Of a stretch of DNA of 64,000 nt, positions 15,306-40,001 are shown in pieces. The position numbers were made by a program, and so were the translations under genes. The DNA is from an uncultured Planctomycetota bacterium (GTDB lineage Bacteria; Planctomycetota; Brocadiia; CAIUPP01). The notes below the pieces were generated by a model. The model was given only the letters and a program-made list of their open reading frames with translations. It did not search any database and was not told where the DNA came from. The first letter of the stretch is position 1; every line of letters starts with the position of its first letter. The stretch covers positions 194,661 through 258,660 of the forward strand of contig CAIUPP010000060.1 of the NCBI GenBank assembly GCA_903901045.1. The letters are read 5' to 3'.

Positions 15306-15875
15306 GTGGACGAACTAACGGAACGGCAACTCATCAAGCGCTTCAAACGGGGGGATACCGCCGCGTTTGACACATTGATGACCGACCATTACGACAAAGT
15401 ATACGCATTGGCCTGTCGCACGACGGGCAGTGAAGATGAAGCGCATGCCCTGGCGCAGGACGTCTTCGTTCAGGCGTACCAGTCGCTGGGGGGGTTCGAC
15501 GGGCGTTCGCGTCTTGCGACGTGGCTCTACTCGATCACGGTGAACAAGGGGATTGACCGGCGCCGCGCGGCGGCTGCTCAGCGGAAGTTGGGCATCGTGC
15601 CGGGGCTGCCGGACCTTCCTTCAGACGGGCGCGGCCGCTCCGGCGAGGACCCCACGGTCGGATTGGATGCGGAGGAGCTTGGGGAGATGATCGCCCGCGC
15701 GATGGCCCGAATTCCCGAGGATCAGCGCGCTACCCTGGAGTTGGTGACGCACGGGCAAGTTTCCTACGTCGACGCAGCGCGCGCGCTGGACTGCTCGAAG
15801 CAGACGGTCGCCTGGCGCGTCTGGAATGCGCGCCGGCTGTTGCGGGAGATGCTTCAGGATTACCTGAAACCGTAG
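15306..15875 (+). CDS. ECF-family RNA polymerase sigma factor
   Basis: 189 residues from GTG 15306, preceded by GAGGA. Sigma region 2 lies at about 10-85: FKRGDTAAFDTLMTDHYDKVYALACR, the SEDEAHALAQDVFVQAYQSL core-binding helix and FDGRSRLATWLYSITVNKGIDRRR. Region 4 is at about 120-180: MIARAMARIPEDQRATLELV followed by the helix-turn-helix SYVDAARALDCSKQTVAWRVWNARR. There is no region 3, as expected for ECF factors. The next gene, 22 bases on, encodes a zinc-type anti-sigma factor, so activity is presumably released by an envelope signal. The likely regulon is the long + strand block downstream, but its promoter was not identified. Confidence 0.9.
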   Translation: MDELTERQLIKRFKRGDTAAFDTLMTDHYDKVYALACRTTGSEDEAHALAQDVFVQAYQSLGGFDGRSRLATWLYSITVNKGIDRRRAAAAQRKLGIVPGLPDLPSDGRGRSGEDPTVGLDAEELGEMIARAMARIPEDQRATLELVTHGQVSYVDAARALDCSKQTVAWRVWNARRLLREMLQDYLKP

Positions 15876-15897
15876 GTCTTGTTGGACGGGCACCGCT

Positions 15898-16866
15898 GTG
15901 AACTGCGAAGAGACTTCCAAGCTGATCAGCCAATCGCTCGACCTGGAGTTGAACGAAAGCGAGAAGACTGCGCTGCGCGAGCATCTGGCCGGATGCCCCG
16001 GCTGCGCGGAGCAGGAGCGCCGGCTGCGCGCGCTTCATGCCGCCATGACGGCGCGTCGGCCTGCCGCGCTGCCGGCGGAGCGGGTGGAATCGGCGGTCGC
16101 CGAACTCCGGCGCCGGGTGGCGCGCGAACGGCCGCGCCAAGTCGAGATGAGGTTCCGCGTCGTGGCGCTGGCGGCGATGCTGATGATGGCGGCCGGTATC
16201 ATCTGGCTGGCCCGCGACCTCGTTGCCGCGCGCGCCCGGGCCGCGGGGCTCTCCGGCCAGTTGGCGCAGGCCCTGGCGAAAGTTCCCGGGGCTAAAACGC
16301 CCCCCATCTCGGCCATTATGGCACCGTCGGAAAAGGTGATTGCCGAGCAGGTGCAGACCTTTTGCGCCACGTACGATTACCTGGATGGCTCGCTTCGCTG
16401 GATGGTCAGCGACGACGGCGAGGTGCAACTCGGGCTTTCCGGCAGCCCGGCCACGAAGACGGGCAGCGCTCCGCGCGACGCGCTGGTGCTGAATTTCCAA
16501 TACCTCGAACGCGCGAGCGGAAAAGGGGTCCGCACCCTCAGCAAGCCGCAGTTCGTCATGATTTCGGGAGAGGAAGTCTCGGTGCGGCTGAAAGGGGACG
16601 CGGACGGCGAGCCGATTTACAGGTATCGCGTCAGGGCCGAGCGCCTCGTGGATGGGCAGGTACGCGCGGAGGTGAGCTTCGTCAATGAGGCATGCCCGAG
16701 TGCCGAAGTGGACACGACGCTGAACGCCAAAGTACAACTCGTTCCCGGAAAGCCGGTGCTGGTAGGCGCCAGCGGGGATGAAGCGCATCGCTGGGAGCTC
16801 TATTTGTGGGGCGCTTCCCGCCCGGCAGTCAATAGCAGCGCGGCTGCGGAGACAGGTCGATTGTGA
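15898..16866 (+). CDS. Membrane-anchored anti-sigma factor with zinc-finger (ZAS) domain
   Basis: 322 residues from GTG 15898. The N terminus carries the anti-sigma zinc motif: C3, then H29-x3-C33-x2-C36 within REHLAGCPGCAEQ. A single membrane helix (about 85-105, ALAAMLMMAAGIIWLA) divides a cytoplasmic sigma-binding part from a periplasmic domain of about 215 residues. That domain is mixed alpha/beta and not recognised. Its position after the ECF gene and its topology make it the probable partner that holds the sigma factor at the membrane until the periplasmic domain senses a signal. Two HtrA-type genes downstream could supply the cleavage that releases it; this is inference. Confidence 0.85.
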   Translation: MNCEETSKLISQSLDLELNESEKTALREHLAGCPGCAEQERRLRALHAAMTARRPAALPAERVESAVAELRRRVARERPRQVEMRFRVVALAAMLMMAAGIIWLARDLVAARARAAGLSGQLAQALAKVPGAKTPPISAIMAPSEKVIAEQVQTFCATYDYLDGSLRWMVSDDGEVQLGLSGSPATKTGSAPRDALVLNFQYLERASGKGVRTLSKPQFVMISGEEVSVRLKGDADGEPIYRYRVRAERLVDGQVRAEVSFVNEACPSAEVDTTLNAKVQLVPGKPVLVGASGDEAHRWELYLWGASRPAVNSSAAAETGRL

Positions 16867-18557: not shown

Positions 18558-18595
18558 AGCCCCGACAGAGAGGCGGTTTTTTGAGAGGAGTCATC

Positions 18596-19648
18596 ATGAA
18601 GTGCCTGACAGTCGTTATGGCAGCCCTGGTCGCGCTATTCCTCGTTGGCGGACCGGCGCGGGCGCAGCAAAAGCCCGCGCAGGATGCGAAACTGGTCGTG
18701 GCCGTCCTCAACTTTGAGACCGGCTCGAAGGAGATCGCGCAGTACGGGGAGCAGATTCCCGACCTGCTGACGGTCTTCCTGACGGCGGAGCCCACGCTGC
18801 AACTGGTCGAACGCGCGAAGATCAAGAACATCCTGGAGGAACTCGCGCTGGGGGCCACCGGCGTGGTGGATGACGCCACCAAGGCGAAGATCGGCAACAT
18901 GACCGGCGCCAAATTCATCATCACCGGCCGCGCCATGGTCGTTGGCAAGCAACTCTATCTGACCGCGAAAGTCATGAGCACCGAAACCGGCAAGGTGGGG
19001 GCCAAAATGGTCAAGGCGAGCCTCGACGCCGACCTCGATGACGGGGCGCAGAAACTCGCGGCGGAACTGGTCTCCTACCTGAAAGAGAACGGTCAGGCGA
19101 TGCAGCCCAAGGTCATGACGGAGCAGGAAATCGCCGCGGCGCTGAAGAAATCGCTGGAGGGCAAGACGCTGCCGAAATTCGCCGTGGCGATCCCGGAGAG
19201 CCACGTCAATCGCCCCGCGGTCGACCCCGCCGCCGAGACGGAATTCAACTTCCTGCTTCGCGCTTGTGACGCGACGGTGATCAACACCAAGGATGATGCC
19301 ATGAGCGACTGGGCCAAATCGCTCTTCACCGAAGCGGGCAAGCCGACGCCGACGGGGCTGGAGGGCGCGGATATCGCCATCGTCGGGCAGGGGTTCAGCG
19401 AATACGCCGCGACCACGGAAAAACTCATCTCCTGCAAAGCGCGGCTGGAAATCAAGGCGGTGGAGGTCAAAACCGGCAAGATACTTGCCGTCGGACGCGC
19501 GACCACGACGGCGGTGGACCTGGCTGAGAACATCGCAGCGAAGTCCGCCCTGCAAAAGGCCGCCAGCGAAATCGCCGTGAAACTGATTCCGGAAGCCGTG
19601 GACGCCTGGGCCAAGAGCGTCAAGAGTGCGGAGAAGACGGGCAAGTAG
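18596..19648 (+). CDS. Exported CsgG-like protein (minimal form)
   Basis: 350 residues from ATG 18596, preceded by GAGAGGAG. A signal peptide is cut after PARA (about residue 24). The domain at about 33-150 follows the CsgG/FlgO/TolB-N pattern: LVVAVLNFETGS, LVERAKIKNILEELALGATGVVDDATKAKIG, then AKFIITGRAMVVGKQL. A second alpha/beta unit (about 195-330) repeats the same pattern in weaker form (FAVAIPE, then ADIAIVGQGF and ARLEIKAVEVKTGKILA). There is no lipobox, unlike true CsgG, so it is not an evident outer-membrane lipoprotein pore. A strong hairpin follows the gene. It is the first of seven CsgG-like genes in this block. Confidence 0.8.
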   Translation: MKCLTVVMAALVALFLVGGPARAQQKPAQDAKLVVAVLNFETGSKEIAQYGEQIPDLLTVFLTAEPTLQLVERAKIKNILEELALGATGVVDDATKAKIGNMTGAKFIITGRAMVVGKQLYLTAKVMSTETGKVGAKMVKASLDADLDDGAQKLAAELVSYLKENGQAMQPKVMTEQEIAAALKKSLEGKTLPKFAVAIPESHVNRPAVDPAAETEFNFLLRACDATVINTKDDAMSDWAKSLFTEAGKPTPTGLEGADIAIVGQGFSEYAATTEKLISCKARLEIKAVEVKTGKILAVGRATTTAVDLAENIAAKSALQKAASEIAVKLIPEAVDAWAKSVKSAEKTGK

Positions 19649-19667
19649 TGAACGAACGGGCTGTTCG

Positions 19668-19701
19668 GGGAGCGGGGCGCTAGAGGCAGCGCCCCGCTCC
19701 C
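19668..19701 (+). terminator. Strong hairpin after the minimal CsgG-like gene
   Basis: A perfect 14-bp stem GGGAGCGGGGCGCT (19668-19681), a 6-base loop, and its complement (19688-19701). It lies 19 bases after the stop codon. No T run follows, so it may be a partial terminator or attenuator, or an mRNA 3'-end stabiliser, inside the block. Confidence 0.6.
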
Positions 19702-19743
19702 ATATTGTGGGTTGTGAGGGACCGAGCGGTTAGTGTTTCGCAG

Positions 19744-19763
19744 GGGCGAGGCATGCCTTGCCC
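19744..19763. repeat. REP-like palindrome, copy 1
   Basis: GGGCGAGGCATGCCTTGCCC, an almost perfect palindrome. The surrounding 25 bases match the copy at 48625 with one difference. It lies 35 bases before ATG 19799 and is outside any gene. Confidence 0.65.
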
Positions 19764-19798: not shown

Positions 19799-22700
19799 AT
19801 GCGGCGGTTCCTCGTCACCGGGCTCCTGATCGGCTGCGCCCTCCTATCGGCGCTACCCGCCATCGCCGCCGACGTGCCTATCCATTTGGCCATCCTCACC
19901 GGCGATGGTGACCGCGCGGTGAGCGACGCGACGCTGGCGCAGGTGGAAGTGGCGCTTACAGAGAACAAAGAAGTCACGCTCCTTGAACGAGCACAGATCA
20001 AGAGAATTCTGACGGAGCAGAAGCTCTCCGCCGCCGGACTCACCGACCCGGCAACAGCGGTGAAGATGGGGAAGCTGCTTTCGGTGGAGATGTTCCTGTT
20101 CCTTGATCGAATTCCCAAGTCCCAGCCTCCAATCTGCCGCGTACAGGTCGTCGAGAGCGAGACGGGAGCAGTCCTGGCTGCCGAGCTTGTCGACGAGGAT
20201 GGGCTTGGCCAGAAGACATCTCGCATAGAGAGTCTGATCGCTTCGGCGTTGCTCAAGCGGCGTGTGCCGCTGGCGGAACGGCGTTACATTGGGCTGATCG
20301 GCTTCCGCAATGAGGAACCGGGGCATGCGCTGGACGGTCTGGCCGAGGCTCTGGGGATGTTCGTGATGGCCGATCTCGACCAGTCTCCGCAGATCATTGT
20401 GTTGGACCGGGAGCGGTTGGAGCGCCTTGCGCAAGAGAAGGAACTCACGGGATTTGACCAGCAACTCCGCTCTTCGGCCGTGCTCTTGGATGGCGCCGTT
20501 CGCCGTGCCGCCACCGGTGTTCTGGCCATCACCGTCACACTCCGTTCCCCGATGAGGGCGGAAGGGCGGCGGGTGTCGGCATCGGCGCCGGAACAGGATG
20601 TTATTGCCGCGCGGAAGGCCCTGACCGCAGCCGTAGCTGAGGCAGTGTGCTGCTATCCCATAAAGGCTGGGCCTCAAACGGACGCTCGCGCGGAGTCTGC
20701 GGCCTTCGTTGCGGAGTGCAACCGACTCCGGGTGGACCGGGACTTCGAGGGAGCGGTGCGCGCGGCGGAGGCTGCTTATGCTCTTGCGCCGGAACCGTCA
20801 ACCCAACTATGTTCAGCCGGAGCTTGGGGGGCGTTGCGCCGGAACCTTGCCGGTACACTCGATTGCCGCTTTGCCGAACTCTCTCCCGCGATCAAGGCGC
20901 GCGCACTCACTGCCACCCTGCGAGAACAAACCCTGTTCTATGATTTGTGCAACGAGAAGCTCCGAGCAAACAGGAACATTGAGGATTTGGTGCGCGGCTT
21001 CAGTGGCGACGCAATCTTTGTTCCCATTCAGATGCCGGAAGCCGGCGAACTTGGGCAACTTCAGCAGGAAACGCGCCAGGCGCAGCGGAGGTTGTTTCAG
21101 ACCGTATTGGATTTCTGCAAGGCCCACTTTGCCGAGCGAGACGTCCCTGAGGTTTACGAACGCGTCTGGCGAGCCCAGACGTCGAGCCTTCAAATAGGCC
21201 CCCCGGAGTTGGCGGCTCAACAAGTGGACGTGCTGCGCGGGGCAGTGGACGCCTTCGCGCACCCGCCCGCGGACCCGGGAGTTTCGTACGCGACGTCGCA
21301 ACTCGGATTGCTCAAGAATCTTCCTTTGGCGATGCAGCTATTCCGGAGGCCTCACAATGCCCCTCCGGCGGCGACGCGCGATTGCTTCGTGGCGTTCTGG
21401 AAAGAGATGACGAAGCACGAAAACCCGTTTGTGAGGCTAACAGCTTACCGTGCGTTGGCGTGGGCGAATGAAAATCCTCAGGCTTCTTCAAGAGAGGCGA
21501 TTAGGACTTTCATCGAGGGGTTTCCCGCCAACCACCCTTGGCGTACGATCGGGGGCGACGGCCAGTTCCAGAGCATGTTGTGGGACTCTTTTGATATCCT
21601 GCGCAAGTCGGATTCGGTCGCCGCGGCCGCGTACGCCCAGCAGATTCTGGAGCCGTGGGTCAGGGAGCGCAATGCCGAACGACTGGCGAGGTGGGATTCG
21701 ATTGTGCTGGCGTGGCTGGATGCGCTCCAAGCCGCCAACCGTTTGGATGAAGCGGACGTTCTGGCTAAGAATATCCACGAGATACTGACCTCAGCAAATA
21801 CGTCGCACTCCGCCATCGCACTGGCCAACAACATCGCGCAACGCCGCACGATGTGGGCGACAAAACTGGCGCAACCCACACCGGAGGACTCTGTCTGGAG
21901 CGACTATCGCATTGAGCCGCTGAGATTGCAGGGCTATTCTCCGGGGGACCCTCTGCTGGTGAGTGGAAACAAAGTGTATTGTCTTTCCTACGCCGGGAAT
22001 GTCGGCGAGATGCGTCAGCATGCGCGCCTCTGCGTTTTCGAACTCCCTCTGGGTGGGGCGCCGTTGAAGAAACAAGAGCTGCATTATGACAACCCCTCGC
22101 GAGGCCTTGTCTGCGTGTCAGCAGTAGTCCGTACCGATAACGCGCTTTATGCCGCGACCGACCTTGGTTTGGAGGAGTTTCCCGATGACGCGCGACCGCC
22201 GCGCGTGCTCAAGGAGGCGGATGGGCTTCGAGGCATGGACATTTCCGCCCTGGCTTATTACGGGGGCAAACTGTACATGGGGCTGGGTGGTTCCCGTTGC
22301 GGAGTGGCCTCCTACGCCCCCGATACCGGTGAGGGGGAACTTATCGCCTCTTCAGTGGCGAAAGACATTCATTCCGGGTTGGACGGCGGAGATAGATACA
22401 GGATTACCGCTATTTTGGCCGATCCCGAAAGGAAGTGCCTATGGCTTGCGGTTATGGGCATGGGAATGCATGTGAAGTGCGGCGGTTTTTGGCGCCTGTG
22501 GCCGGCCACCGGCAAACTGGAGCAGGTTATCTCCGACGAGAACGCGGTCACCCATGCCGTCTTTTGCGGCAGAGACATCCTCCTCGATACGTACAACGGA
22601 CTCGTATTGTTCAATCCCGAGCAGAATACGAGTACTTGGCTTCTGGAGATCGCTTCCGCTCCACGTCCTCCAGGTTGCGTGAGCGGGCCGCTTTTTGGCG

Positions 22701-22984
22701 CTCGCGCCTTGCCAACGTGGCCGGCCGCATGCGATGGTGAGCGATTGTTGACGGGGGGCGAGGAGATATTCCTCGCGTTGCACCGAAAGGGCGCGGATCC
22801 CGTTCTCTGCGGCGGGCTCCGGCACGTGACCATGCTCGATCCAACTCCCTGGGGGATTTTGGCCGTCGGCATAGCAACAAAGAAAAGCAGCGGCAATGCC
22901 TGGTTGATTCGGAGAAATCCGACGCCCGAAGCGCAGGCGGCCTCGGACATGTCAAAGGAAAAAGCGGCAAAGGAAACCCAATGA
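19799..22984 (+). CDS. Large exported CsgG-like/propeller protein, paralogue A
   Basis: 1061 residues, with GAGGGGAAG before ATG 19799. The signal peptide is cut near AIA-AD (residue 24). Residues about 28-130 form the CsgG-like module (AILTGDGDRAV, TLLERAQIKRILTEQKLSAAGLTDPATAVKMGKLL). A second module of related pattern covers about 160-280. A helical middle part (about 290-690) follows. The last 350 residues look like a beta propeller (repeats such as ADGLRGMDISALAYYGGKLYMGLG) and end in the family signature WLIRRNP. It is the most divergent of four paralogues. There is no lipobox, so it is presumably periplasmic or secreted. Function is unknown. Confidence 0.75.
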   Translation: MRRFLVTGLLIGCALLSALPAIAADVPIHLAILTGDGDRAVSDATLAQVEVALTENKEVTLLERAQIKRILTEQKLSAAGLTDPATAVKMGKLLSVEMFLFLDRIPKSQPPICRVQVVESETGAVLAAELVDEDGLGQKTSRIESLIASALLKRRVPLAERRYIGLIGFRNEEPGHALDGLAEALGMFVMADLDQSPQIIVLDRERLERLAQEKELTGFDQQLRSSAVLLDGAVRRAATGVLAITVTLRSPMRAEGRRVSASAPEQDVIAARKALTAAVAEAVCCYPIKAGPQTDARAESAAFVAECNRLRVDRDFEGAVRAAEAAYALAPEPSTQLCSAGAWGALRRNLAGTLDCRFAELSPAIKARALTATLREQTLFYDLCNEKLRANRNIEDLVRGFSGDAIFVPIQMPEAGELGQLQQETRQAQRRLFQTVLDFCKAHFAERDVPEVYERVWRAQTSSLQIGPPELAAQQVDVLRGAVDAFAHPPADPGVSYATSQLGLLKNLPLAMQLFRRPHNAPPAATRDCFVAFWKEMTKHENPFVRLTAYRALAWANENPQASSREAIRTFIEGFPANHPWRTIGGDGQFQSMLWDSFDILRKSDSVAAAAYAQQILEPWVRERNAERLARWDSIVLAWLDALQAANRLDEADVLAKNIHEILTSANTSHSAIALANNIAQRRTMWATKLAQPTPEDSVWSDYRIEPLRLQGYSPGDPLLVSGNKVYCLSYAGNVGEMRQHARLCVFELPLGGAPLKKQELHYDNPSRGLVCVSAVVRTDNALYAATDLGLEEFPDDARPPRVLKEADGLRGMDISALAYYGGKLYMGLGGSRCGVASYAPDTGEGELIASSVAKDIHSGLDGGDRYRITAILADPERKCLWLAVMGMGMHVKCGGFWRLWPATGKLEQVISDENAVTHAVFCGRDILLDTYNGLVLFNPEQNTSTWLLEIASAPRPPGCVSGPLFGARALPTWPAACDGERLLTGGEEIFLALHRKGADPVLCGGLRHVTMLDPTPWGILAVGIATKKSSGNAWLIRRNPTPEAQAASDMSKEKAAKETQ
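19880..20177 (+). repeat. CsgG-module DNA repeat, copy A
   Basis: Encodes the conserved module shared with copies at 30553, 33681 and 36951. This copy is clearly more diverged at DNA level; for example, it lacks the AGGAGG-TTAC-CCTCCT hairpin of the other three. Confidence 0.7.
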
Positions 22985-23057
22985 AAGCTCCATCTTTTAT
23001 ATGCAGTTCTTGCGACAACACACTGAATAAACAAGGCTTTGGTCAGGAGGAGGCGTG

Positions 23058-24458
23058 ATGAACAGCTTGGGAATGAGCAGCCATCGCTGGAAGCGGGTTA
23101 CCCTGTCTGTGGCGGGAGTGCTGGCGCTGGGAGTTCTCCCCGCGCGCGCGGAACTGAGCGTGCCCCCGGATAAGCGCTCGATCGACTTCGAGCAGGTGAT
23201 TACGACCGCGAAGGAGAAGGTCTTCCCGGCGCTCATCTTCGTCAAGCCGATTCGGGAGAACTACGAAGAGGGAGAGAAGGAACGCGAGCAGGTCTTCGGC
23301 AGCGGCGTCATCATCTCGCCGGACGGTCTGGCCATCACGAACCAGCACGTCGTGGACAAGGCCATTCGCGTCAACTGCGTCCTCTGGAAGAAGGAGCAGG
23401 TGACGGCCCGCGTCGTTGGCGAAGACAAGGAGACGGACCTCGCGCTCATTCAGTTGAAGTGGGAGGGCGGCCCGCTGCCCTTCGCCGAGTTCGGCGACTC
23501 GGACAAGCTCACGGAGGGGCAGTTCGTGATGGCCCTGGGAGCGCCGTTTGGCTTCACGCGCAGCATCTCCCTGGGGGTCATTTCCAGCACGCAGCGCTAT
23601 ATCGGCTTCCGCACCATGTACAAGTACAATCTCTGGCTCCAGACGGACGCGGCCATCAATCCCGGCAACAGCGGCGGCCCTCTTGTGGACACGAACGGCC
23701 ACGTGGTGGGCATCAACACGCTTGGCCTCATGGGGGTGGACATCGGCTTCTCGATCCCTTCAAACGAGGTGCGCAAGGTCGTCGAGCGCCTGAAGAAGGA
23801 TGGCAAAGTGTTTCGCGCATGGACCGGCCTGGACCTCCAGGCGTTGAAGGACTTCGACTCCAACACCTTCATCAACAGCGAGGAGGGGGTTCTCATCAAG
23901 GGGGTGGAGGATGACTCCCCCGCGGAGCAGGCAGGCATCCGCAGCGGCGACATTCTCTTGGAAGTCGGCGGCCGGAAGGTCCTCGGCGTGTTTGTGGAGC
24001 AGCTTCCTCAGCTTCGGTGGGACCTGGCGGAGCTGCCGGTGGGCAAGCCGGTGACTCTCACGCTCCGGCGCGCGGGAGAAACGCTGAAGGTGGATATCGC
24101 GCCGGCGCTCAAGGAGGACTCGGAAGGGGAAGACTTCGACTGCCACCGCTGGAATATGACGGTCAAAGGCATTACGAGTCACGCTAACCCGTCGCTCTAT
24201 TTCTATCGCAAGAAGGGGGTCTTCATACGCGGCGTGCGGGCCCCGGGAAATGCGGCGCTGTGCGGCCTGATGAAGCACGACATTCTCCTGAAAGTCGGTG
24301 CGGAGCCGGTGGAGAGCATCGGAGACGTCAAGCGCATCTATGGAGCGCTCCTGGCCGATCAGGCGCGCGAGAAGAAGGTGCTGGTCACCGTCTTGCGTGA
24401 GGGAATCGAAAAGCTTCTGGTGCTCGACTATCGAACCGATTATGAGAAGGAGGATTGA
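23058..24458 (+). CDS. HtrA/DegP-family serine protease with two PDZ domains
   Basis: 466 residues from ATG 23058, after GGAGGAGG; a GTG one codon earlier is less well spaced. A signal peptide ends near PARA (residue 31). The trypsin-like domain has a complete triad: H97 in TNQHVVD, D127 in ETDLALI and S205 in GNSGGPL. PDZ1 is at about 265-350 (GVLIKGVEDDSPAEQAGIRSGDIL). PDZ2 is at about 375-460 and is atypical (GVFIRGVRAPGNAALCGLMKHDIL). Such periplasmic proteases degrade or refold damaged envelope proteins and can cut anti-sigma factors. The next gene, 3 bases on, is a relative that lacks the triad, so the two may work as a pair. Confidence 0.9.
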   Translation: MNSLGMSSHRWKRVTLSVAGVLALGVLPARAELSVPPDKRSIDFEQVITTAKEKVFPALIFVKPIRENYEEGEKEREQVFGSGVIISPDGLAITNQHVVDKAIRVNCVLWKKEQVTARVVGEDKETDLALIQLKWEGGPLPFAEFGDSDKLTEGQFVMALGAPFGFTRSISLGVISSTQRYIGFRTMYKYNLWLQTDAAINPGNSGGPLVDTNGHVVGINTLGLMGVDIGFSIPSNEVRKVVERLKKDGKVFRAWTGLDLQALKDFDSNTFINSEEGVLIKGVEDDSPAEQAGIRSGDILLEVGGRKVLGVFVEQLPQLRWDLAELPVGKPVTLTLRRAGETLKVDIAPALKEDSEGEDFDCHRWNMTVKGITSHANPSLYFYRKKGVFIRGVRAPGNAALCGLMKHDILLKVGAEPVESIGDVKRIYGALLADQAREKKVLVTVLREGIEKLLVLDYRTDYEKED

Positions 24459-24461
24459 TCC

Positions 24462-26807
24462 ATGCGGCACACGAAACAGGCGGCGAGTCTTGCAGTCCTG
24501 GCGCTGGCGCTCCTGCTGCCGGCGTGGGGAATGACGGTCCAGGCTAAGGAGTCGGCGAGCCGGGAGGCGATGCTGTCCGCCGGACGCGCCGCGCTTTGCC
24601 GAGTGCACTTCTTCTTCAAGCGGCCGGCGGATATGAAAGAGCGGCAGGCGGGGATGCCGTACGACATGGACCTGTTCAGCCGCATGCCCTACGAGGAGTT
24701 GATCGCCCAGCAGAAAAGCCTCGTGCTGCCCGGCGTGCTCCTGGACGATGCCGGGCACGTGCTCATCGGCGACATCCACCTGGAAGAGAAATACGTCGAC
24801 CATATCGAAGTCATGGCGCCGGACGGGACGCGCTATCCGGCAAAACTGGACCGGATTCTCGACCGCAGCACGGGGGTGATGCTGAGCATCACGGAGCCGC
24901 TCAAAAACTGGAAAGCGCCGAAGTTCGCGAGCCAGGCGACGATCGCCGACGCCGGCGTCGTGACGCTGCGCAGGACCGGGCGCGATTGGCTTCTCGACGT
25001 CGGTTCCGCCGGTGCGGACTACTCCTACGAGGCGGGCAACGCGGTGCCGAAACGCTTCGGCGGAGCCACGGAGACCTCCATGATGGCGGCGGCATTCGGA
25101 ATGTTCGGCGAGGAGGGCATGGCCGAAATGATGAGCGCGCAACACCGGCCCATGCTCCTGTGCAACGAGAAAGGGCAGCCGGTGGGGGCCCTGGTCTCCG
25201 ACTTCGCAATCGACCAGGAGCAGAAACTCGGCGACTGGCAGCGCGAGCGTCTCCTCGCGGGGCCAGGCATCTCCTACGCCGACTTACGGGCCCTGGGAGA
25301 GAAGTGCAACGAAGAGCTCGGCGGGAAGGCCTATAAGTGCGTGATCCAATATCGTCACGAAGAAGAGGAAGGGGCCAACGGGTACGTTCCGCACTACTCT
25401 CCCGGTTCCTCCAGCGAAATGGAGGAGGGAAAAGACCGCGAGCTATTCGGGCTGGCGATCTCGCCCAAGCAGCTATTCGTGCCGCAGCCGATTTCGCGCG
25501 ATGAACTGGCGAATATTGACAAGTTTGAGATAGTCGTCGGCGATAAGCCCCAGCCGGCGGAGTTTGTCGCGGCGTTTCAGGACGTGGCAGGGTTCGTGGT
25601 CGCGCTGAAGGAAGGGGAATTCCCGGCGTTTGCCGCCATATCAGCCGGTCAGACGCCCGAGCGCATGCGGTTGTTCCTCACCGCCACGGTCGAAGAGAAG
25701 TTCGGCAAAACACATTTCGAGGTGGCGCCGAATCGCTGGCTCCATGAGAGCCTGGGCTACAAGGATCTCTTCTACATTTCCCCCACCTACTCCGTCTCCG
25801 TCGGCGGGTGGATACTGGACCGCCAACTCAACATCCTGGGGGTCTTTGCCGGTCAGCGCCTGACCGGAGAGGAGATACAGGCGCTGGGCGCGGGCTACCG
25901 GGGCGACTTCGGGCGGCGTTTGATGCGGATATTCTGGAACTCCGAGCTGGCGCCGATGCTGGCCAACCCCGTCGCCTTTGCCGATCCGCAAATCCGCCAC
26001 AAGAGCAAAGAGGACGCCAAACGCCTGGTCTGGCTGGGCGTGGAGTCCAGTCCGCTCACTTCCGATCTGGCCAAACAACTCAAAGTGGAAAGAGAGACCA
26101 AGGATGGCACCATCGGCCTCTACGTCAACCTGGTCTACCGCAACTCCCCGGCCGCACGGCTGGGGATCAAAGAGGGGGATATCCTTCTCCAGATCGAGAC
26201 CGCCAAGCAGCCGCATCCCATCGACCTTAACGCGATGAACATCGATAGCGAGATGTTCCGATTCGACTGGCGGCAATATGCCGATTACTCAACAGTCGAA
26301 GAATACGGCGAAGCCGAGCCGCGATGGCCGCTGCAAATCAATTACATGACAATGCTTCTCCAGTCCATCGGCGAAGGAGAGAAGATCAAACTCACCTGGC
26401 TGCGCGCCGGCGCCAAAATCGCGCAGGAGTACCAGATAGAGCTCGGCCCGCCGAACTTCCTGTGCGCGCCGAAGTTCAAAAACAAGGAGATTGGACTCAC
26501 AGTCAAGGACGTCACCTATGAAGTGCGGACCGCTCTGCGGTTGGACGACGAGCGCGCGGCAGTTGTCGTGGCGAAGATTGAGCGTGGCAGCCCCGCCGAA
26601 GTCGCCCGAATTGCGCCGTTCGAACTGATCACCGCCATGGATGGCGCGCCCGTGGGCTCGGCCAGGGAATTTGGCCAGCGCATCCAGGAAGCCCAGGCCG
26701 CTGGCAAGAAGAGCGTGCGCCTCACGGTGGAGTTGTTGGGCGCGTCGCGCCTGGCCGATCTGGACATCACCAAAGCTGCGGCATCCAAAGAGAACCCGCA
26801 GGAGTGA
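24462..26807 (+). CDS. HtrA-like pseudoprotease with PDZ domains
   Basis: 781 residues, starting 3 bases after the HtrA gene stop (GAAGGAGG before ATG 24462). A signal peptide ends near VQA (residue 28). Residues 85-250 align by eye with the trypsin fold of the neighbour. The His position is kept (H106 in GDIHLEEK). The Asp position reads STGVMLS, and the Ser position falls in a stretch around QHRPMLLCNEKGQPVGAL with no GNSGG. PDZ-like domains lie at about 540-610 (NSPAARLGIKEGDILLQIE) and 690-775 (GSPAEVARIAPFELITAMDG). It probably binds substrates or regulates the active protease rather than cutting. An alternative is a new active site. Confidence 0.78.
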   Translation: MRHTKQAASLAVLALALLLPAWGMTVQAKESASREAMLSAGRAALCRVHFFFKRPADMKERQAGMPYDMDLFSRMPYEELIAQQKSLVLPGVLLDDAGHVLIGDIHLEEKYVDHIEVMAPDGTRYPAKLDRILDRSTGVMLSITEPLKNWKAPKFASQATIADAGVVTLRRTGRDWLLDVGSAGADYSYEAGNAVPKRFGGATETSMMAAAFGMFGEEGMAEMMSAQHRPMLLCNEKGQPVGALVSDFAIDQEQKLGDWQRERLLAGPGISYADLRALGEKCNEELGGKAYKCVIQYRHEEEEGANGYVPHYSPGSSSEMEEGKDRELFGLAISPKQLFVPQPISRDELANIDKFEIVVGDKPQPAEFVAAFQDVAGFVVALKEGEFPAFAAISAGQTPERMRLFLTATVEEKFGKTHFEVAPNRWLHESLGYKDLFYISPTYSVSVGGWILDRQLNILGVFAGQRLTGEEIQALGAGYRGDFGRRLMRIFWNSELAPMLANPVAFADPQIRHKSKEDAKRLVWLGVESSPLTSDLAKQLKVERETKDGTIGLYVNLVYRNSPAARLGIKEGDILLQIETAKQPHPIDLNAMNIDSEMFRFDWRQYADYSTVEEYGEAEPRWPLQINYMTMLLQSIGEGEKIKLTWLRAGAKIAQEYQIELGPPNFLCAPKFKNKEIGLTVKDVTYEVRTALRLDDERAAVVVAKIERGSPAEVARIAPFELITAMDGAPVGSAREFGQRIQEAQAAGKKSVRLTVELLGASRLADLDITKAAASKENPQE

Positions 26808-26864: not shown

Positions 26865-29468
26865 ATGAGGGATAGATACAAAGTAATGCGACACTTCCTG
26901 AGACTCTCAGCCTCGGTCCTCGCGCTTCTCGCGGTGGCGGCTATGCCGGCTATTGCCGCCGACGCCCAGACGGACGCCCCTACGCTGGCCGTCTTGAATT
27001 TTTCCAACCGCACTCCGGGAGACGGCTCGGACTGGCTGGACAAGGGGCTGGCCGACATGCTCATAACGGACTTGTCGGTCACCGACAAACTGCGGCTGGT
27101 GACGCGCGAGGATATGCAGTCGATGTTCGACGAAATGCGACTTGGCGCGAGCGGCGCAGTATCGGCCGACTCCGCGCAACAGTTCGGCAAGATGGTGCAA
27201 GCGGACCTCGTTCTGACGGGCACGTTCGCCTTGAAGGGCAACCTCTGCGAAATGGAGGCGCACGTCGTCGAGATTGGCACGCAGAATGTCCGCCGAGTGG
27301 AAGTCGTCGCGGGCCAAGCCACCGACGTGCTGAAGCTGGAGAAAGAGCTGGCGCTCAACGTGGTCAAGAACTTCAACGTTCCCTTGAGTGAGGGTGAGCG
27401 CGCGTCGCTCATGCGGATGCCCACACAATCTGTTGATGCCGGCAAGTGCCTTTACGAGGGACTGGACGCGCACGACCGGGGCGAGTCGTATGACGCGATA
27501 GCTGCCGTCCGCAAGGCTCTGGAGAAGGACCCGGCATTTGACCGGGCGCGGTTTGAACTGGGAGGCATTTACCGCGCGGTGCTGGAATTTCATCACGCCG
27601 ACGTCGAATTCGCGCGTCTGGTTGTTCGTCAACCCCGCAGCCCCTTTGCCGCAGGGGCGCTCCTTGCGCGCGCTAAACTCAAAGAAAAGTTCTTCCCTGC
27701 CCCGCCGGATAGCGTGATTGCCGCATATGATGAGGTCGCCAAATGCTATCCGGAAAGCGATTTGGCTCTGAGCGCGCGCTTCCGCGCGGCCGTTCTAGCC
27801 TACGAGACGGACAAGGTGGACCTTGCTCTGGAGCTTTTTGACACTCTCGGTAATCTGAGCGTCGGACGTTACGGGCCGGGCTGCAGATGGATGCGGGACT
27901 ACGGCGCAGCTACGGCTCGTACGATTCGGAAGAATCAAGAGAACCCGAACGCGGCTCCGAAGCTGCGCCGGGCCAGAGATGAGAAAGTGAGCCCGCGTAT
28001 CGAACTCGCCGCAAGAGCGGGCCGACAATCATTCAACTGCGTCGAGCAGCTTCTAGGCTCGTGGAATAAGCGCGTGACCGTCATCGTGGACGCTCCAGCC
28101 GGCTATGCGATCCGTTCCGCCAAGTTGCAGACGGCCAGCGAAGAAAGCACCTGGCGCGTTGAAGTGTGCGAACCGGTCGGTCGAACCTTGTGGACGGAGT
28201 CCGCCTCTGCGAGAAAGACGGAAGATGTCAGGTTCGACACGCCTCTTCCTGCTCTGGTGCTCAACGTGGATTGCGGCGCCGGCAACCGCTCACTGGCATC
28301 CGGCACCACGAACTCTCTGGGGGGCATGGTGGTGCTGGAATCCGTTGGCGCGGCGGACGCCACGCCGCAGACGGTTGCGCACAGTCTTATGCTGAAGCAT
28401 CGCCCGCTGCCTCTCATGTTTGTCGAGGATGCCCTTGAGCGTTTCTTGCAGGAACTGCCCTCCGACGCCGTCACGCTGCCGCCTATGGAGAGCGGGGCAT
28501 TCTATCCGTCCATGGCGCAGGACGCGGAAGGCCGCCATTGGATCGTGTTCAATGACCAATGCGGCTCCGATCTGGTGGCGCCGACGGGGGGCGATGCGGA
28601 CCTTTGGATATCCAGTTCTCCGGACGGGCGCTGGTGGTCCAGGCCGGAGCGCCTGCCCGTCAGTTCCGACGGGCACGACTTCCATCCCTGGCTCATGGTG
28701 GACCAGCAGCGCAACCTGCGGCTGGTATGGGCCAGCATGCGACGCGGGGACCGCAATTTCGAGATACTCACCTCGATTTCACGCGACGGCGCCAGTTGGT
28801 CAGTGCCTCGTCTTTGCAAGCTGAAACAGAGTTTCGGTTCAGTCGAAGAGGCCGATAAGGAGCGCAGAAAAGGGTTGAGTTGGGGAAACTATTGTCCCCG
28901 GATTGTGCAGGACAAAGACGGACGGTACTGGATGGCGTATCTCTCGTTCGTCGGGGTACCAGGGGGTTCCGACGAGCCCACCGGGTGTCCATTGGTCGCT
29001 TGTTCCGATGATGGATTCAATTGGCAGGAACAACCTGAGATACAGGGGATTAGCGCTACGCGGGGACCGCTTTCCTTCGTTCAAGGAAGTGATGGCTCGC
29101 TCAACCTCTCCGGAGTCTGGGGCAAGGAACTTCGTGTAACCAGTCTTCAGAGGGGAGGACCGAGTTGGCAGGCGCGCAGCTTGGGCCTTGGCCCGGAAAA
29201 GATACGCTGGCCCAACTTAAGCGTGGACCGCGAAGGGAACTTCTACCTGGCCTATCATGGGATCAACGGCAGGCTGACGGTCATTGCATCGCGCAACGCG
29301 GAGCGCTGGAGCGGTCCGCAGTTGGTTGGAACCACCGGCAGCAGCCACGGCGCCCCTTTCCTTTTCCACGACCGCGAGGGCAACCACTGGCTCGTAGGCG
29401 GCACGTATCATGCGACGGCAATCCTTCAGTCCATCCATCTCCTCAAGGTCACGCTGCCGGCGCCATAA
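26865..29468 (+). CDS. CsgG-like, TPR and Asp-box propeller fusion protein
   Basis: 867 residues from ATG 26865. ATG 26886 or GTG 26814 are alternatives; the first two place the signal peptide correctly (cut at AIA-AD). The CsgG/FlgO-like domain is at about 40-165 (LAVLNFSNRTPGDGSDWLDKG, LVTREDMQSMFDEMRLGASG). TPR-like helices follow at about 195-340 and a beta-sandwich at about 390-500. The C-terminal 370 residues carry at least four Asp-box motifs of sialidase-type propellers (SSPDGRWWS, SRDGASWS, SDDGFNWQ, SRNAERWS). Asp-boxes are structural; I see no sialidase Arg triad, so glycan cleavage is not supported. The architecture suggests an exported recognition or scaffold protein. Confidence 0.72.
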   Translation: MRDRYKVMRHFLRLSASVLALLAVAAMPAIAADAQTDAPTLAVLNFSNRTPGDGSDWLDKGLADMLITDLSVTDKLRLVTREDMQSMFDEMRLGASGAVSADSAQQFGKMVQADLVLTGTFALKGNLCEMEAHVVEIGTQNVRRVEVVAGQATDVLKLEKELALNVVKNFNVPLSEGERASLMRMPTQSVDAGKCLYEGLDAHDRGESYDAIAAVRKALEKDPAFDRARFELGGIYRAVLEFHHADVEFARLVVRQPRSPFAAGALLARAKLKEKFFPAPPDSVIAAYDEVAKCYPESDLALSARFRAAVLAYETDKVDLALELFDTLGNLSVGRYGPGCRWMRDYGAATARTIRKNQENPNAAPKLRRARDEKVSPRIELAARAGRQSFNCVEQLLGSWNKRVTVIVDAPAGYAIRSAKLQTASEESTWRVEVCEPVGRTLWTESASARKTEDVRFDTPLPALVLNVDCGAGNRSLASGTTNSLGGMVVLESVGAADATPQTVAHSLMLKHRPLPLMFVEDALERFLQELPSDAVTLPPMESGAFYPSMAQDAEGRHWIVFNDQCGSDLVAPTGGDADLWISSSPDGRWWSRPERLPVSSDGHDFHPWLMVDQQRNLRLVWASMRRGDRNFEILTSISRDGASWSVPRLCKLKQSFGSVEEADKERRKGLSWGNYCPRIVQDKDGRYWMAYLSFVGVPGGSDEPTGCPLVACSDDGFNWQEQPEIQGISATRGPLSFVQGSDGSLNLSGVWGKELRVTSLQRGGPSWQARSLGLGPEKIRWPNLSVDREGNFYLAYHGINGRLTVIASRNAERWSGPQLVGTTGSSHGAPFLFHDREGNHWLVGGTYHATAILQSIHLLKVTLPAP

Positions 29469-29490: not shown

Positions 29491-30384
29491 ATGAATACGA
29501 TAGTCACGCGCGGAACATCATCGTGGCGAATTCCGAAGCAGCCTGCGGCCCTCTTGTGCGTTGCGCTGGCCATTGCGCTCCTCGCGCCAGTCACCCTTTC
29601 CGCCGTCGCCGTCCTGCCATTCCATAACTCATCGAACCAGCCGGACCTCGACCCGGTGGCCGATGGGCTGGGGGACCTGCTCATCACTTGCGCGCAGAAT
29701 ACCCCCGGCGTCACATTCGTCGAGCGCGTTGCGCTCGACAAGGTTCTGGCCGAGCAGAAGATCAGCCTGGCGGGTTTGACCGACGATAAGACGAAAGCCC
29801 AGGTGGGCAAACTGCTCGGGGCAAAGTACATCATTACCGGGGGATTGGTCATGTTGGACAACAAGCTCACGATCAACGCGCGCCTGTTCGAGGTGGAGAC
29901 CTCACGCGTGGCGAAATCATCCGAAGCCACAGGCACGCTCGACAATCTGATGGAAACTGTTCAATCGCTGACGGTGGACTTGATGAAGGGAATCGGAATC
30001 GAGCTGAAACCATTGAGTGCGGCGGAGATCGACCGCTCACCCGAGGCGAACCTGCACTTCATGCGCGGCTTGGGCTATTTCTATGGCAACATGAAAAATC
30101 AGGCGATCTCCGAGTTCATGAAATCGCTCGCCATCGACCCCGCTCAGCCCCGTGCGCGCTGGTGGAACGCGGCTTGTTATTACGATCAAAAAGAATGGGA
30201 ACACGCCGCCATCGAATACGAACGGTTCCTGAAGGACTTCCCGAAAGACGCGTCCGCCGTCGAGGCGCAGAAGAGACTGGCCCAGTGCAAGAACATGCCG
30301 GGCAATGTCATTAAGCAACATGAGCCGCCACCCCGACCAATGCCTTCGAGAGTTCGGCAGGGCCAAGGCGCTCCAGGAAAGTAA
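29491..30384 (+). CDS. Exported CsgG/FlgO-like protein with TPR
   Basis: 297 residues from ATG 29491, with AAGGGATG upstream. An N-terminal hydrophobic segment (about 20-37) runs directly into the first strand SAVAVLPFHNSSN. It may be a signal peptide or a retained anchor. The CsgG-like domain covers about 37-160 (TFVERVALDKVLAEQKISLAGLTDDKTKAQVGKLLGAKYIITGG). Two TPR units follow at about 195-275 (NLHFMRGLGYFYGNMKNQAISEFMKSLAIDP and AACYYDQKEWEHAAIEYERFLKDFP). A Pro-rich tail ends the protein. Similar CsgG-TPR proteins are common in outer-membrane-bearing phyla and are not assigned a function. It lies between the propeller fusion gene and the paralogue array. Confidence 0.78.
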   Translation: MNTIVTRGTSSWRIPKQPAALLCVALAIALLAPVTLSAVAVLPFHNSSNQPDLDPVADGLGDLLITCAQNTPGVTFVERVALDKVLAEQKISLAGLTDDKTKAQVGKLLGAKYIITGGLVMLDNKLTINARLFEVETSRVAKSSEATGTLDNLMETVQSLTVDLMKGIGIELKPLSAAEIDRSPEANLHFMRGLGYFYGNMKNQAISEFMKSLAIDPAQPRARWWNAACYYDQKEWEHAAIEYERFLKDFPKDASAVEAQKRLAQCKNMPGNVIKQHEPPPRPMPSRVRQGQGAPGK

Positions 30385-36600: not shown

Positions 36601-36839
36601 CTTCCTCCAGCATCGCTCTTTGGCCGGCATGGTACGACGGGATGACCCTCATCACCGCCGGTATGAACGCCGGAAGCGGCATGGAGAACAAGGGGGGCGG
36701 ACGCCTGTTCCTTCACCGCATGGAGCGGGAACCGGCATGTTATCAGGCACTTGTCGTCACTCCCGTCTTTGAGCCGACGCCGCAGGGTCTGCTGGTCTTC
36801 GACACGGCGGGTGAAGGGTATCTGATCCGGAAGAAGTAG
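33615..36839 (+). CDS. Large exported CsgG-like/propeller protein, paralogue C
   Basis: 1074 residues. ATG 33615 overlaps the stop of paralogue B and has GGAGGTG 4 bases upstream. The signal peptide is cut at AFA-EP (residue 20). The same order of parts as B and D is seen: CsgG-like module (about 22-120), a second alpha/beta module, a long helical middle, a Pro/Ala linker around residue 680 (APKPAPAPEV), and a propeller-like C-terminal part ending GYLIRKK. Just after the linker, DPWKQYEVRCLGL is shared with D (DPWNQYEVRRLLL). Strong similarity to D runs through most of its length, so C and D are the youngest pair. Confidence 0.75.
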   Translation: MRLYCLFTLIFLVAADFAFAEPVRLAILTGEGERAVADATLAQLEVALTENKEVTLLERAQIRKILAEQKLSAAGLTDPSTAVKMGKLLSVEMFLFLDRVPRSQPPICRVQLIETKTGIALAAGTMEETELGGGGAEMAGMIQRAMAKRAMPVAERHYVGLLGVRSEDPGDALDGMARTLWTLLSCDLEECPGLVLLDREHVQRLSEEKQLTDAEQALKLSMVLIDGGLRRSAEKNKMELTLLLRPLAGGAPENLPAFRKELIAALAERLKAKLPERQGGNPEKEAQTFMSQARLLTLCGDREASLRANETAYAIWPDRTTRLALVEAYSKRKYMWETFNKVPEQDQVKALQYEVRMLTLLREQWRTELAPGAPEAQDSGPQGASLGTPINAGFGVLIREAPPEISALQKEAVALQRNIFDMAMDAAQRDPKKYGYAYWEALGSAVWRVNSIHFLHPQEQAAGWREFFIALRKRPASDEVGPRWTIQSLREEMNSLRGLSEPDKADVRRLFIPVFKEFTSDPDLTVRLAAHVGLINVDPSAADSAEIFLQYTAEGVDWKISSDYSAPPDLSPAQRAAALLCDQRPELAGAYCEKIMGAWIKQGVLNRDEKCTGLVGTLVRGTEKAKGKAEACALCGRVLAALHECKDRQPNAPRWVDQYIHTFEELRAQMTAAADAPKPAPAPEVAGAPDPDDPWKQYEVRCLGLTLKAPVCGAIVRGDRLYCISCADISFGSAGPYQEDGTRKVTVSAHRFPDGGPALRADTLAVPLGKSIIRSQAVWAGFAGDSLYISTGGSLVSFPANAVPRVLTDADGWTVTGMPIAAMAAFGGKLYLTVGERVSGDWVKPKHAFVVFDPAARAVRVIFSNTALEEAQRRDVMIVTVLADEARKCLWVTLAGGKDSSGLFHYDPATDKLDKLEAANQSDTPADIAAPYAGPPVQTVTLCPMGLLVLTMHQGRKPPIVNMLAVLDPQTRKETWLAGQVFGPYLKRRDGDPLFASSSIALWPAWYDGMTLITAGMNAGSGMENKGGGRLFLHRMEREPACYQALVVTPVFEPTPQGLLVFDTAGEGYLIRKK
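33681..33978 (+). repeat. CsgG-module DNA repeat, copy C
   Basis: 298 bases that match copy D (36951-37248) with about 17 differences by my hand count, nearly all at third codon positions. Similarity drops sharply after this segment. Confidence 0.85.
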
Positions 36840-36854
36840 AGGAGGGGAACAGCG

Positions 36855-39800
36855 GTGGCGTTGGAGAAAGAACACTGGAAGTGGGGGGGCGCCTTCCTGC
36901 TGCTTCTTGCGTTTCTCACGGTAGTTCAAGTTGCCCGCGCGGCAGATTCAGTCCGCCTCGCCATTCTCACTGGCGACGGCGACCGCGCCGTGACCGATGC
37001 GACTCTGGCGCAACTGGAAGTCGCGCTGACGGAGAACAAGGAGGTTACCCTCCTCGAACGCGCGCAGATCAGGAAGATTCTGGCGGAGCAGAAGCTCTCC
37101 GCCGCCGGTCTCACCGATCCGTCGACAGCGGTGAAGATGGGGAAGCTGCTGTCGGTGGAGATGTTCCTTTTCCTCGACCGCGTGCCCAGGAGCCAGCCGC
37201 CCATCTGCCGTGTGCAGCTGATCGAGACGAAGACGGGGATTGCGCTCGACGGTGCGCTGAGGGAGGAGTCCTCCCTCGCGCAGACGGAAGGGGGGATCGG
37301 GCCTGTTGTGCGCCGGGCGCTGGCAAAGCGGGAGAGTCCTCCAGCGGATCGACGCTATGCCGCGATTCTCGGCCTGCGCAACGAGGAGCCGGGGCAGGCG
37401 CTGGATGGCCTCGCGCGCACACTCTGGATGCTGCTCTCAACGGACCTCCAGGAATGCCCGACCCTGGTTCTCCTTGACCGCGAGCACTTGCAGCGTCTGC
37501 GTGAGGAGAAACAGTTGACGGACGTGGAGCAGGCGCTGAAACTGTCCACAGTACTGCTGGAGGGGGGCATTCGGCGCAGCGCGGAGCAGGGACAAGTGGA
37601 GTTGACGCTTCTTATTCAGCCGTTGGCCGGAGGGGAACCGGAGCGGTTGACATTGCGATTCGATCCAGCGAAGCTTGAGCCCTTCCGGCGCGAACTGGTC
37701 GCGGCGATCACGGAGCGGCTGAAACTCAAACCGCCCTCTCAGGTCGTCGCCGATCCGGAGAAGGAAGGACGGCGGTTCCTCGCCCAATCGCAGATGCTGG
37801 CCACCTGTGGTGAAAAGGACGCCGCGCTGCGCGCCATCGAAGCCGCCTATGCCCTCTGGCCCGACCGTTGCACTCGGATCGAGCTAGCCGCCAGCTACGG
37901 CGATCATGTGCTTGGCTACCCCCATCGCATCAGTACCACGTCTCGTCGATATGAGCCGCCGCCATTTGACGAAGCTACGGAGCAGCAGCAGTTGCAGTCC
38001 ATGCGACTTGAAATCCGGATGCTCTCATTGCTTCGCGAGCAGTACCGGCTCGATTTTGGTCTTGAAGGGAATGTGGCTCTTACGAAGATAGAGTATGGCC
38101 GTGAGTTCGGCATGCATGACTATCCGACTCTAGGACTAATCACGCACAATGCAAAAGGGGAGGCCGCGGTTCTTCTGCCGGAGGTGGCGAGATTGCAGCG
38201 GGACCTTCTTGACGCCGCCGCAGTCGCTGCCAGGAAGGACCCGCAGAATTATGGCATCGTCTATTGGGAAGCCATGGACAGCGCGCTGCGCGATCTGTGT
38301 ATCGGCAGATTCGGGCACGCCGCCGCGAAGGCTGCTGGCTGGCGAGAGATAATTACCCTCTGGCGCGATGCGCCCACGGGGCGTGGTAACGCGGTCGGCG
38401 GCGCATTCAGGTCGTTCGGGTCATCGTTGCAGGGTTCAATTAACAACGCGCTTCAGTCATTGCCGAAAGAAGCGCCGGAGGTACGCAAACCCTTCGTGGA
38501 GGCGTTTAGCTCCTTTCGGGAAGACCCGGACCCGAGAGTTCAGTTCACAGCCAACGTCGGCTTGTTCATCGTTGATTCGGCGTCCCAGGAAGCCGCCAAA
38601 GCGGTCTTGGAGTACCTATGCAACGACATAGAGTGGGCTGACTATCCTCCAGGCTATGACGGCACGATGAATTTCATTGCCTACCGGGCGGTCAATCTGC
38701 TCAACGAGACGAAGCCCGCGCTTGCAGCCGCCTATTGTGAACGAATCGTGGGGCCTTGGATAAGGGAAGGTGGGGAGTCGCAGCGGCTGCTCCAGTCAGG
38801 TGGACTGCAGAGTGAGTGGGTGCAGGCGGTGGAACGGACGAAGGGAAAGGCTGAAGCCGACGTTGTGTGTCAGCGCCTCATCGCCGGTTTGCAGGACAGT
38901 CTCAAGCGCCAGCCCAATCTCTATCCCGAAACGATCCGGGAGATGATCCGCACTTGGGAAGCATATCGCGAGAAGTTGGGCGTGGCGCTTCCCGCGCTGC
39001 CGGGGCCGGACGATCCGTGGAACCAGTACGAAGTGCGGCGCTTGCTGTTGGGCTTGAAGGGGACTGCCACCGGCGCGCTCGTCCACAAGGATCGTCTGTA
39101 TTGCATCGTGCTCACCAACGATCATAAAGGGCGTCACAGCGTAACGGTGACCGTGCATCCATTCCCCTCGGGCGGTCCGGCGCTGCGGACACAGACGTTA
39201 ACGCTGCCCGAGGAGAACATGCTGTACGTCTCCGAAGGCATGGGCGCCATGATGGGGGAACGTCTCTACATTGGCACGACGGTCGGCGTGGTCGCTTTCT
39301 CCGAGACCGAGCCCCCCCGGCTGCTGACGGAGGCCGATGGCTTGCCCGGAGTCCTGATCACCGCCGTGGCAGCATACGAAGGAAAACTCTACCTGGGCAT
39401 CGGCCCGCCGACTCAGTTCAAACATGCATTTGTCGTATACGATCCGGCCTCCCGCCAGGCGCGCACCATTGTCTCGAACACTGCTTTGGAGGCCTCCCAA
39501 CGACGCGATATTGTGGTTCAGACGCTTCTAGTCGACGAAGAACGCAAGTGCCTTTGGATTGGATCAAATGCGCTCTATCGCTACACCCCTGAAGCCGACA
39601 AACTCGATAAGGTCATGGAGTGGGTCTACATGGTGGACGCCGGCCACACGATGCTCTTCTCCGCGCATGGACTACTGTACGCCATGGGCTCCAGCGCGAC
39701 ATGGCTCGACATCAAGAACATTAAGCAGACCTGTTTGCTCGGGCATGATGGCCTAGTCGAAGACAAATCGCTCTTTGGCTACCCCGGCACAAGCTATTGG

Positions 39801-40001
39801 CCGGCGTACTACGACGGGCAGACTCTCATAACGGGTGGGAAAGATCTCCTATTGCACCGGGTTGGACAGGAGCCTGCGCGGAGCAGGCTGGCGCAGGACA
39901 TCGCTTTCTTCGAGCCCACTAGCGAAGGCCTTCTTGCCATGAGCAGGAATGGCGACGGCTATCTGATTCGGAAGAAGCCGGAGGCGGGTGTTCAGAAGTG
40001 A
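36855..40001 (+). CDS. Large exported CsgG-like/propeller protein, paralogue D
   Basis: 1048 residues from GTG 36855, after GAGGAGGGG, 15 bases past the stop of paralogue C. The signal peptide is cut near ARA-AD (residue 32). It has a CsgG-like module (about 33-130), a second module at about 165-290, and a helical middle. The C-terminal propeller-like part has ADGLPGVLITAVAAYEGKLYLGIG and KCLWIGSNALYRYTPEADKLD, which recall two-component-regulator propeller blades. It ends GYLIRKKPEAGVQK. It is the last gene of the + strand block; the tRNA-Arg gene on the other strand follows after 48 bases, with no obvious terminator. Function is unknown. Confidence 0.75.
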   Translation: MALEKEHWKWGGAFLLLLAFLTVVQVARAADSVRLAILTGDGDRAVTDATLAQLEVALTENKEVTLLERAQIRKILAEQKLSAAGLTDPSTAVKMGKLLSVEMFLFLDRVPRSQPPICRVQLIETKTGIALDGALREESSLAQTEGGIGPVVRRALAKRESPPADRRYAAILGLRNEEPGQALDGLARTLWMLLSTDLQECPTLVLLDREHLQRLREEKQLTDVEQALKLSTVLLEGGIRRSAEQGQVELTLLIQPLAGGEPERLTLRFDPAKLEPFRRELVAAITERLKLKPPSQVVADPEKEGRRFLAQSQMLATCGEKDAALRAIEAAYALWPDRCTRIELAASYGDHVLGYPHRISTTSRRYEPPPFDEATEQQQLQSMRLEIRMLSLLREQYRLDFGLEGNVALTKIEYGREFGMHDYPTLGLITHNAKGEAAVLLPEVARLQRDLLDAAAVAARKDPQNYGIVYWEAMDSALRDLCIGRFGHAAAKAAGWREIITLWRDAPTGRGNAVGGAFRSFGSSLQGSINNALQSLPKEAPEVRKPFVEAFSSFREDPDPRVQFTANVGLFIVDSASQEAAKAVLEYLCNDIEWADYPPGYDGTMNFIAYRAVNLLNETKPALAAAYCERIVGPWIREGGESQRLLQSGGLQSEWVQAVERTKGKAEADVVCQRLIAGLQDSLKRQPNLYPETIREMIRTWEAYREKLGVALPALPGPDDPWNQYEVRRLLLGLKGTATGALVHKDRLYCIVLTNDHKGRHSVTVTVHPFPSGGPALRTQTLTLPEENMLYVSEGMGAMMGERLYIGTTVGVVAFSETEPPRLLTEADGLPGVLITAVAAYEGKLYLGIGPPTQFKHAFVVYDPASRQARTIVSNTALEASQRRDIVVQTLLVDEERKCLWIGSNALYRYTPEADKLDKVMEWVYMVDAGHTMLFSAHGLLYAMGSSATWLDIKNIKQTCLLGHDGLVEDKSLFGYPGTSYWPAYYDGQTLITGGKDLLLHRVGQEPARSRLAQDIAFFEPTSEGLLAMSRNGDGYLIRKKPEAGVQK
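36951..37248 (+). repeat. CsgG-module DNA repeat, copy D
   Basis: Partner of copy C (about 94 % identical by hand count) and close to copy B. It contains the AGGAGG-TTAC-CCTCCT hairpin at 37039-37054. Confidence 0.85.

Follow-up and report, generated by a model that had tools for sequence, protein, structure and literature searches.

The window analyzed here, a 64,000-nucleotide stretch from a 4.77-Mb draft genome of a Planctomycetota bacterium, carries at positions 15306-40001 twelve genes, all on the + strand, in the order sig, asig, sec, C1, C2, htrA, the gene for a PDZ partner protein, and C3 through C7 (Table 1). Intergenic gaps were short or negative, with the exception of those between C1 and C2 (150 bp) and between C2 and htrA (70 bp). 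The genes and coordinates of the preliminary description were confirmed, and Pfam searches bore out its families, in which a sigma factor was followed by a zinc anti-sigma factor, a secreted protein, and seven CsgG-module proteins with an HtrA pair. For C1, C3, C4, C5 and C6, the starts given in Table 1 lie inside the listed open reading frames and are likely the true ones. No Pfam family was found in the sec product or in 15 of its orthologues, and sequence searches of a set of solved structures with profiles of C1 and sec returned nothing useful, including no solved relative of sec.

Directly upstream of sig, positions 10440-15026 encode a protein of 1528 aa that combines a PAS domain with a very long coiled coil. 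At its other end the locus adjoins the 3′ side of a tRNA-Arg(TCT) gene. A genome of the same family (G001; L163 2789-6614) has the same aspartate kinase and tRNA-Arg, lacks the locus, and continues with a different long open reading frame, Tex-like by eye; the tRNA edge may therefore be the point at which the locus was inserted. One short pattern search found no att-like repeat near the locus.

Table 1. Features of the locus, numbered from the first base of the window.
Feature	Position	Strand	Evidence
Putative ECF promoter, TCAAATC - N14 - GCGTCTAAC	15226..15255	+	Position weight matrix (PWM); about 50 bp before sigma gene
sig, ECF sigma factor	15306..15875	+	Sigma70_r2 E 1.3e-13; TIGR02937 above cut-off
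asig, anti-sigma factor	15898..16866	+	zf-HC2 E 6.1e-9; orthologue alignments
sec, secreted unknown directly 5′ of C1	16863..18557	+	Orthologues before C1 in most loci
C1, core protein, two ABD-type (TolB-N/LpoB/CsgG-like) domains	18596..19648	+	CsgG E 3e-10; AF2 model
C2, two ABD-type domains, helical region, beta-propeller	19799..22984	+	CsgG E 6.4e-6; alignment with C5/C6/C7
htrA, HtrA/DegP-type serine protease	23055..24458	+	Trypsin_2 E 3.2e-32 (complete match); PDZ matches
PDZ protein, HtrA partner, without recognizable protease domain	24462..26807	+	PDZ only
C3, ABD-type domain, TPR-like part, BNR/Reg_prop-like C-terminal part	26886..29468	+	CsgG E 1.7e-9; BNR_2, Reg_prop sub-threshold
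C4, ABD-type domain and TPR	29491..30384	+	CsgG E 9.6e-15; TPR_2 E 5.3e-7
C5, paralogue of C2/C6/C7	30469..33618	+	CsgG 21.0 bits (cut-off 20.8); alignment
C6, paralogue of C2/C5/C7	33615..36839	+	CsgG 20.8 bits, at cut-off; alignment
C7, two ABD-type domains, helical region, beta-propeller (residues about 720-1043)	36855..40001	+	CsgG E 6.5e-7; AF2 and VIA
tRNA-Arg(TCT), right edge of locus	40050..40126	-	ARAGORN

The sig product (189 aa) matched Sigma70_r2 (51 bits) and TIGR02937 (67.7 bits) and scored 24.4 bits with the r4_2 profile, just below its cut-off of 25.7; sigma regions 2 and 4 only were present, which is the ECF arrangement. The adjacent asig encodes a ZAS motif, H-x3-C-x2-C (HLAGCPGC), that identifies its product as a zinc anti-sigma factor. 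Alignments revealed one hydrophobic stretch and a periplasmic domain common to the orthologues, two of which lacked the zinc ligands. The pair resembles known ECF sigma factors and zinc-type class I anti-sigma factors in its tandem arrangement, its membrane-bound anti-sigma factor and an autoregulated-type promoter, but no target operon with the content of this locus was found described.

The distribution of the locus was followed through C1. In a phylum-wide sample of 392 genomes, 14 had a homologue (E 1e-15); homologues were also present in 28 of 397 genomes of one class (E 1e-20) and, at full strength, in 4 of 75 genomes of the window's own class. Neighborhoods were read with profiles built in this analysis, and loci with enough sequence around C1 were considered assessable. 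With the window excluded, 34 Planctomycetota loci were assessable, and in 26 of them a sigma gene adjoined C1. The order was mostly sig-asig-sec-C1-module proteins and recurred in several classes (L007, on the 28,892-base Planctomycetota contig JAPLOD010000179.1; L042, L044, L093, L094, L139, L143, L148-L151, L153, L155, L157, L158 and L168, some cut by contig ends); in L091 the sigma pair was divergent. No sigma gene was found near C1 in the other eight (L088, L089, L092, L141, L144, L152, L154 and L171), most of which still had sec-C1 and module genes. The presence of a sigma gene in 22 of 29 loci corresponds to a P of about 3e-23 at an assumed background of 5% per locus, the loci not being fully independent; the window's genome contains only 14 Sigma70_r2 matches. 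The preliminary description had staked its proposal on relatives keeping the sigma pair linked to the CsgG-like genes, and both linkage and order were indeed recovered across several classes. The locus belongs to a gene cluster that is widespread and apparently undescribed. A search of the open literature found no paper that connects CsgG with planctomycete loci of this kind, and Planctomycetes are not listed for the CsgG family in PMC4827864.

A CsgG-module protein with a length of about 730-760 aa was encoded by many members of one family (L016-L037; for the most part f4, which belongs to the same class). In L050, L051, L054 and L055 such a protein adjoined a shorter one, of about 340-430 aa. 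Profiles found no sigma gene at the three of these loci examined, L051, L053 and L054.

A motif, GAAATT-N13/15-GCGTCTAAT, was common to the regions 5′ of the sigma genes. It was picked by eye and then checked by leave-one-out and in held-out loci, with a PWM built from 12 sigma-upstream regions. When left out of the matrix, the window site still ranked first among all positions of the 64-kb window, with both strands scored (16.1, versus 15.2 for the next site), and in leave-one-out runs the sigma-upstream site ranked first in its own locus in 10 of 12 loci, the window included. Among eight held-out loci, the top site lay 5′ of sig in L169 and L170 and 5′ of a module gene in L165, and the second-ranking site of L169 also lay 5′ of a module gene. 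Of the rest, only L143 had a clear site, and it is closely related to a training locus. In the related loci L148 and L149, a site scoring 17.3 preceded C1 and ranked tied first and first, respectively. Clear sites were missing in several loci (e.g., L150, L153, L158 and L168), and unsupervised dimer counting on the upstream regions gave no clear gain over shuffles. The placement of the motif supports, without proving, the prediction that the sigma factor drives its own gene and the module genes. The window contained one motif only, and genes 3′ of the 150-bp C1-C2 gap may therefore have other promoters. ECF control of the locus thus appears well supported by comparison and is the best-supported step of the mechanism proposed below. 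We know of no targets for many ECF sigma factors of Planctomycetota.

HtrA proteases can act in sigma factor release, as in DegS-RseA, and the htrA product (Trypsin_2 and PDZ) and its partner (PDZ only) are encoded within the operon and share the strand of the sigma pair. An HtrA protease and a sigma pair thus stand in one gene run, as in the DegS-RseA/sigmaE system, and the preliminary description had suggested that the protease may release the sigma factor. A stress cascade of this kind, in which HtrA and its partner would sense misfolded envelope proteins and cut the anti-sigma factor, with the module proteins as targets or output, is improbable. The pair was absent from every other sampled copy of the locus, so that the linkage of protease to sigma and anti-sigma genes expected of a DegS-type system did not extend across relatives, and the HtrA itself has a signal-peptide-like N-terminus. 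The pair was adjacent in at least five other genomes of the class (G070, G069, G067, G071 and G001; L120-L124) with no CsgG-module neighbors on the available sequence, where several contigs are short and distant linkage is possible; the G070 partner orthologue, 51% identical, adjoins an htrA, and G001 has the pair without the locus. Because the pair is conserved elsewhere without the locus genes, the release role found no support, and the pair is best read as a separate cassette that probably joined this copy.

CsgG (PF03783) profile searches of the whole genome returned eight matches, seven of them in this locus, so that their clustering is not due to chance. The eighth match, in a protein of about 220 aa, stood alone (G000:C112:11534-11707; L057 9199-9864). 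All seven locus proteins reached the Pfam cut-off, C5 and C6 barely, with matches confined to roughly positions 2-104 of the profile's 210. Two tandem domains were present in C1 and C7 and, by alignment, in C2, C5 and C6, and the locus therefore contains more than seven modules.

AF2 models were generated for C1 (two sequences; mean pLDDT 68.7) and C7 (mean pLDDT 66, with the first module below 50, likely due to near-identical alignment rows). The C1 model had ABD topology at residues 33-165 and 194-347. Its first domain, ordered beta-alpha-beta-alpha-alpha-beta-beta-beta-alpha, matched the TolB N-domain best (VIA Z 14.2, rmsd 2.5 over 119 residues), followed by FlgT (13.0), LpoB (11.6) and PelC (11.0); the second aligned with CsgG (Z 11.7) and with HpaA and LptE-like folds. 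In C7 a second ABD-type domain (167-290) was followed by a helical part and a beta-propeller.

That the locus encodes a CsgG-type outer-membrane secretion pore in many paralogues, exporting unknown fibers, would be suggested by the Pfam scores and by the fit of the second C1 domain to CsgG, and the core folds are indeed similar. Nevertheless, the profile match is confined to its first half, the best structural match of the first C1 domain is soluble, and this domain was predicted to have central strands of about 10 residues and a 2-residue turn at the position of the CsgG membrane hairpin. No long membrane hairpins were present in the C1 or C7 models, which are of modest confidence. Likewise, Pfam scans of the locus genes recognized no curlin, CsgE or CsgF. 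The statement in the preliminary description that none of the proteins has a lipobox stood for all but C2, which has a formal match (LIGC) at residues 10-13, although an AxA-type signal-peptide site follows it. A pore is thus very improbable, in agreement with the earlier view that this is not a curli system, and the models indicate a TolB/LpoB/FlgT-like module that is often doubled and lacks the CsgG pore hairpins.

A close architectural parallel is TolB of Tol-Pal, likewise exported and built of an N-terminal ABD-type domain followed by a C-terminal beta-propeller. The locus proteins differ in having two ABD-type domains, a long helical insert and several paralogues per locus, as well as heads exchanged for other repeats and ECF control, and no tol or pal gene was found among the locus genes scanned. 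LpoB, FlgO, FlgT and PelC share the fold class without a membrane barrel (Z 11-13), and C4 had a weak FlgO match; the modules of the locus differ in being mostly not lipoproteins and in being fused to large repeat domains.

The C7 propeller aligned at a Z of about 22 with WD40 and propeller structures, and its best Foldseek matches were BT4673 sensor propellers (E 5e-8). Propeller heads that bind polysaccharide in the manner of BT4663/BT4673-type sensors, with the ECF pair tuning uptake, would make this a locus for nutrient or surface-glycan sensing. However, propeller folds are widely shared, similar Z values were obtained with many unrelated ones, and no carbohydrate transporter, SusD or glycoside hydrolase scored above cut-off among the operon genes scanned; we consider this role unlikely.

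Across the loci, the part that follows the modules was exchanged. Ankyrin repeats were found in L088, L089 and L158, WD40 with SHD1 in L092, leucine-rich and BNR repeats in L043, an FGE-sulfatase domain in L046, WG repeats in L146 and TPR in L105 and L139; in others this part had no Pfam match. In L088 (1710-8830; G399), a 1817-aa CsgG-module protein with ankyrin repeats lies beside a second ankyrin protein, divergent from sec-C1.

Within the window, the first modules of C2, C5, C6 and C7 were 84-97% identical, versus 26-46% for the remainder. At identical residues, C5 and C7 used the same codon at 63 of 76 positions in the module (83%) versus 71 of 207 in the rest (34%; Fisher 1e-13), and C6 and C7 at 84% versus 46% (Fisher 1e-10); C2-C5 was the weakest pair (p 0.02). 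The same trend was observed in L007. Since identical residues share codons more often in the module, these data point to homogenization of the first module by gene conversion.

A homogenized module beside a divergent remainder, and heads exchanged among ankyrin, WD40, LRR, FGE-sulfatase, WG and TPR, would also fit a polymorphic interaction or conflict system, a conserved exported module carrying fast-exchanged heads against other cells, phages or surfaces. Consistent with this, occurrence of the locus was patchy. G001, of the window's own family, had no match to the locus proteins, and in the C1 tree three genomes of one family (f9) fell in three separate places, one with a genome of another class, a scatter that would reflect horizontal transfer or old paralogy with loss. 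The locus was also present in complete planctomycete genomes, and on plasmids C1 had one weak, half-length match. Against a conflict system, the heads are generic binding domains and no toxin, nuclease or immunity gene was recognized; its probability is low, though not negligible.

We favor, by a modest degree of belief, a dedicated ECF regulon in which module proteins would sit on an envelope scaffold and carry interchangeable heads, the HtrA/PDZ pair being an added cassette. This reading draws on what the sequences present, namely gene content, conserved linkage, the shared promoter-like motif, the predicted fold, head exchange and module homogenization. The anti-sigma factor, which has a single membrane span and whose periplasmic domain is conserved, would hold the sigma factor until an envelope signal frees it. 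The freed sigma factor would then fire its own promoter and probably transcribe much of the + strand run. The exported products would be the conserved pair of sec and the double-ABD C1, together with a set of module proteins. From fold and pattern, we infer that the scaffold most likely forms by docking of the ABD-type modules, either among themselves or on C1, and that the C-terminal repeats serve as interchangeable binding heads, propeller and TPR here and ankyrin, WD40, LRR, WG or FGE-sulfatase elsewhere.

The locus may, tentatively, represent a hitherto undescribed Planctomycetota envelope system. A single sigma factor would control a set of exported proteins, receptors or adaptors, that have a homogenized docking module in common and exchange their heads between lineages. 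The locus offers a testable regulon, for which a promoter is predicted and whose gene order is clear. If docking by the modules is true, TolB/LpoB-type domains would be a common plug for exchangeable surface heads.
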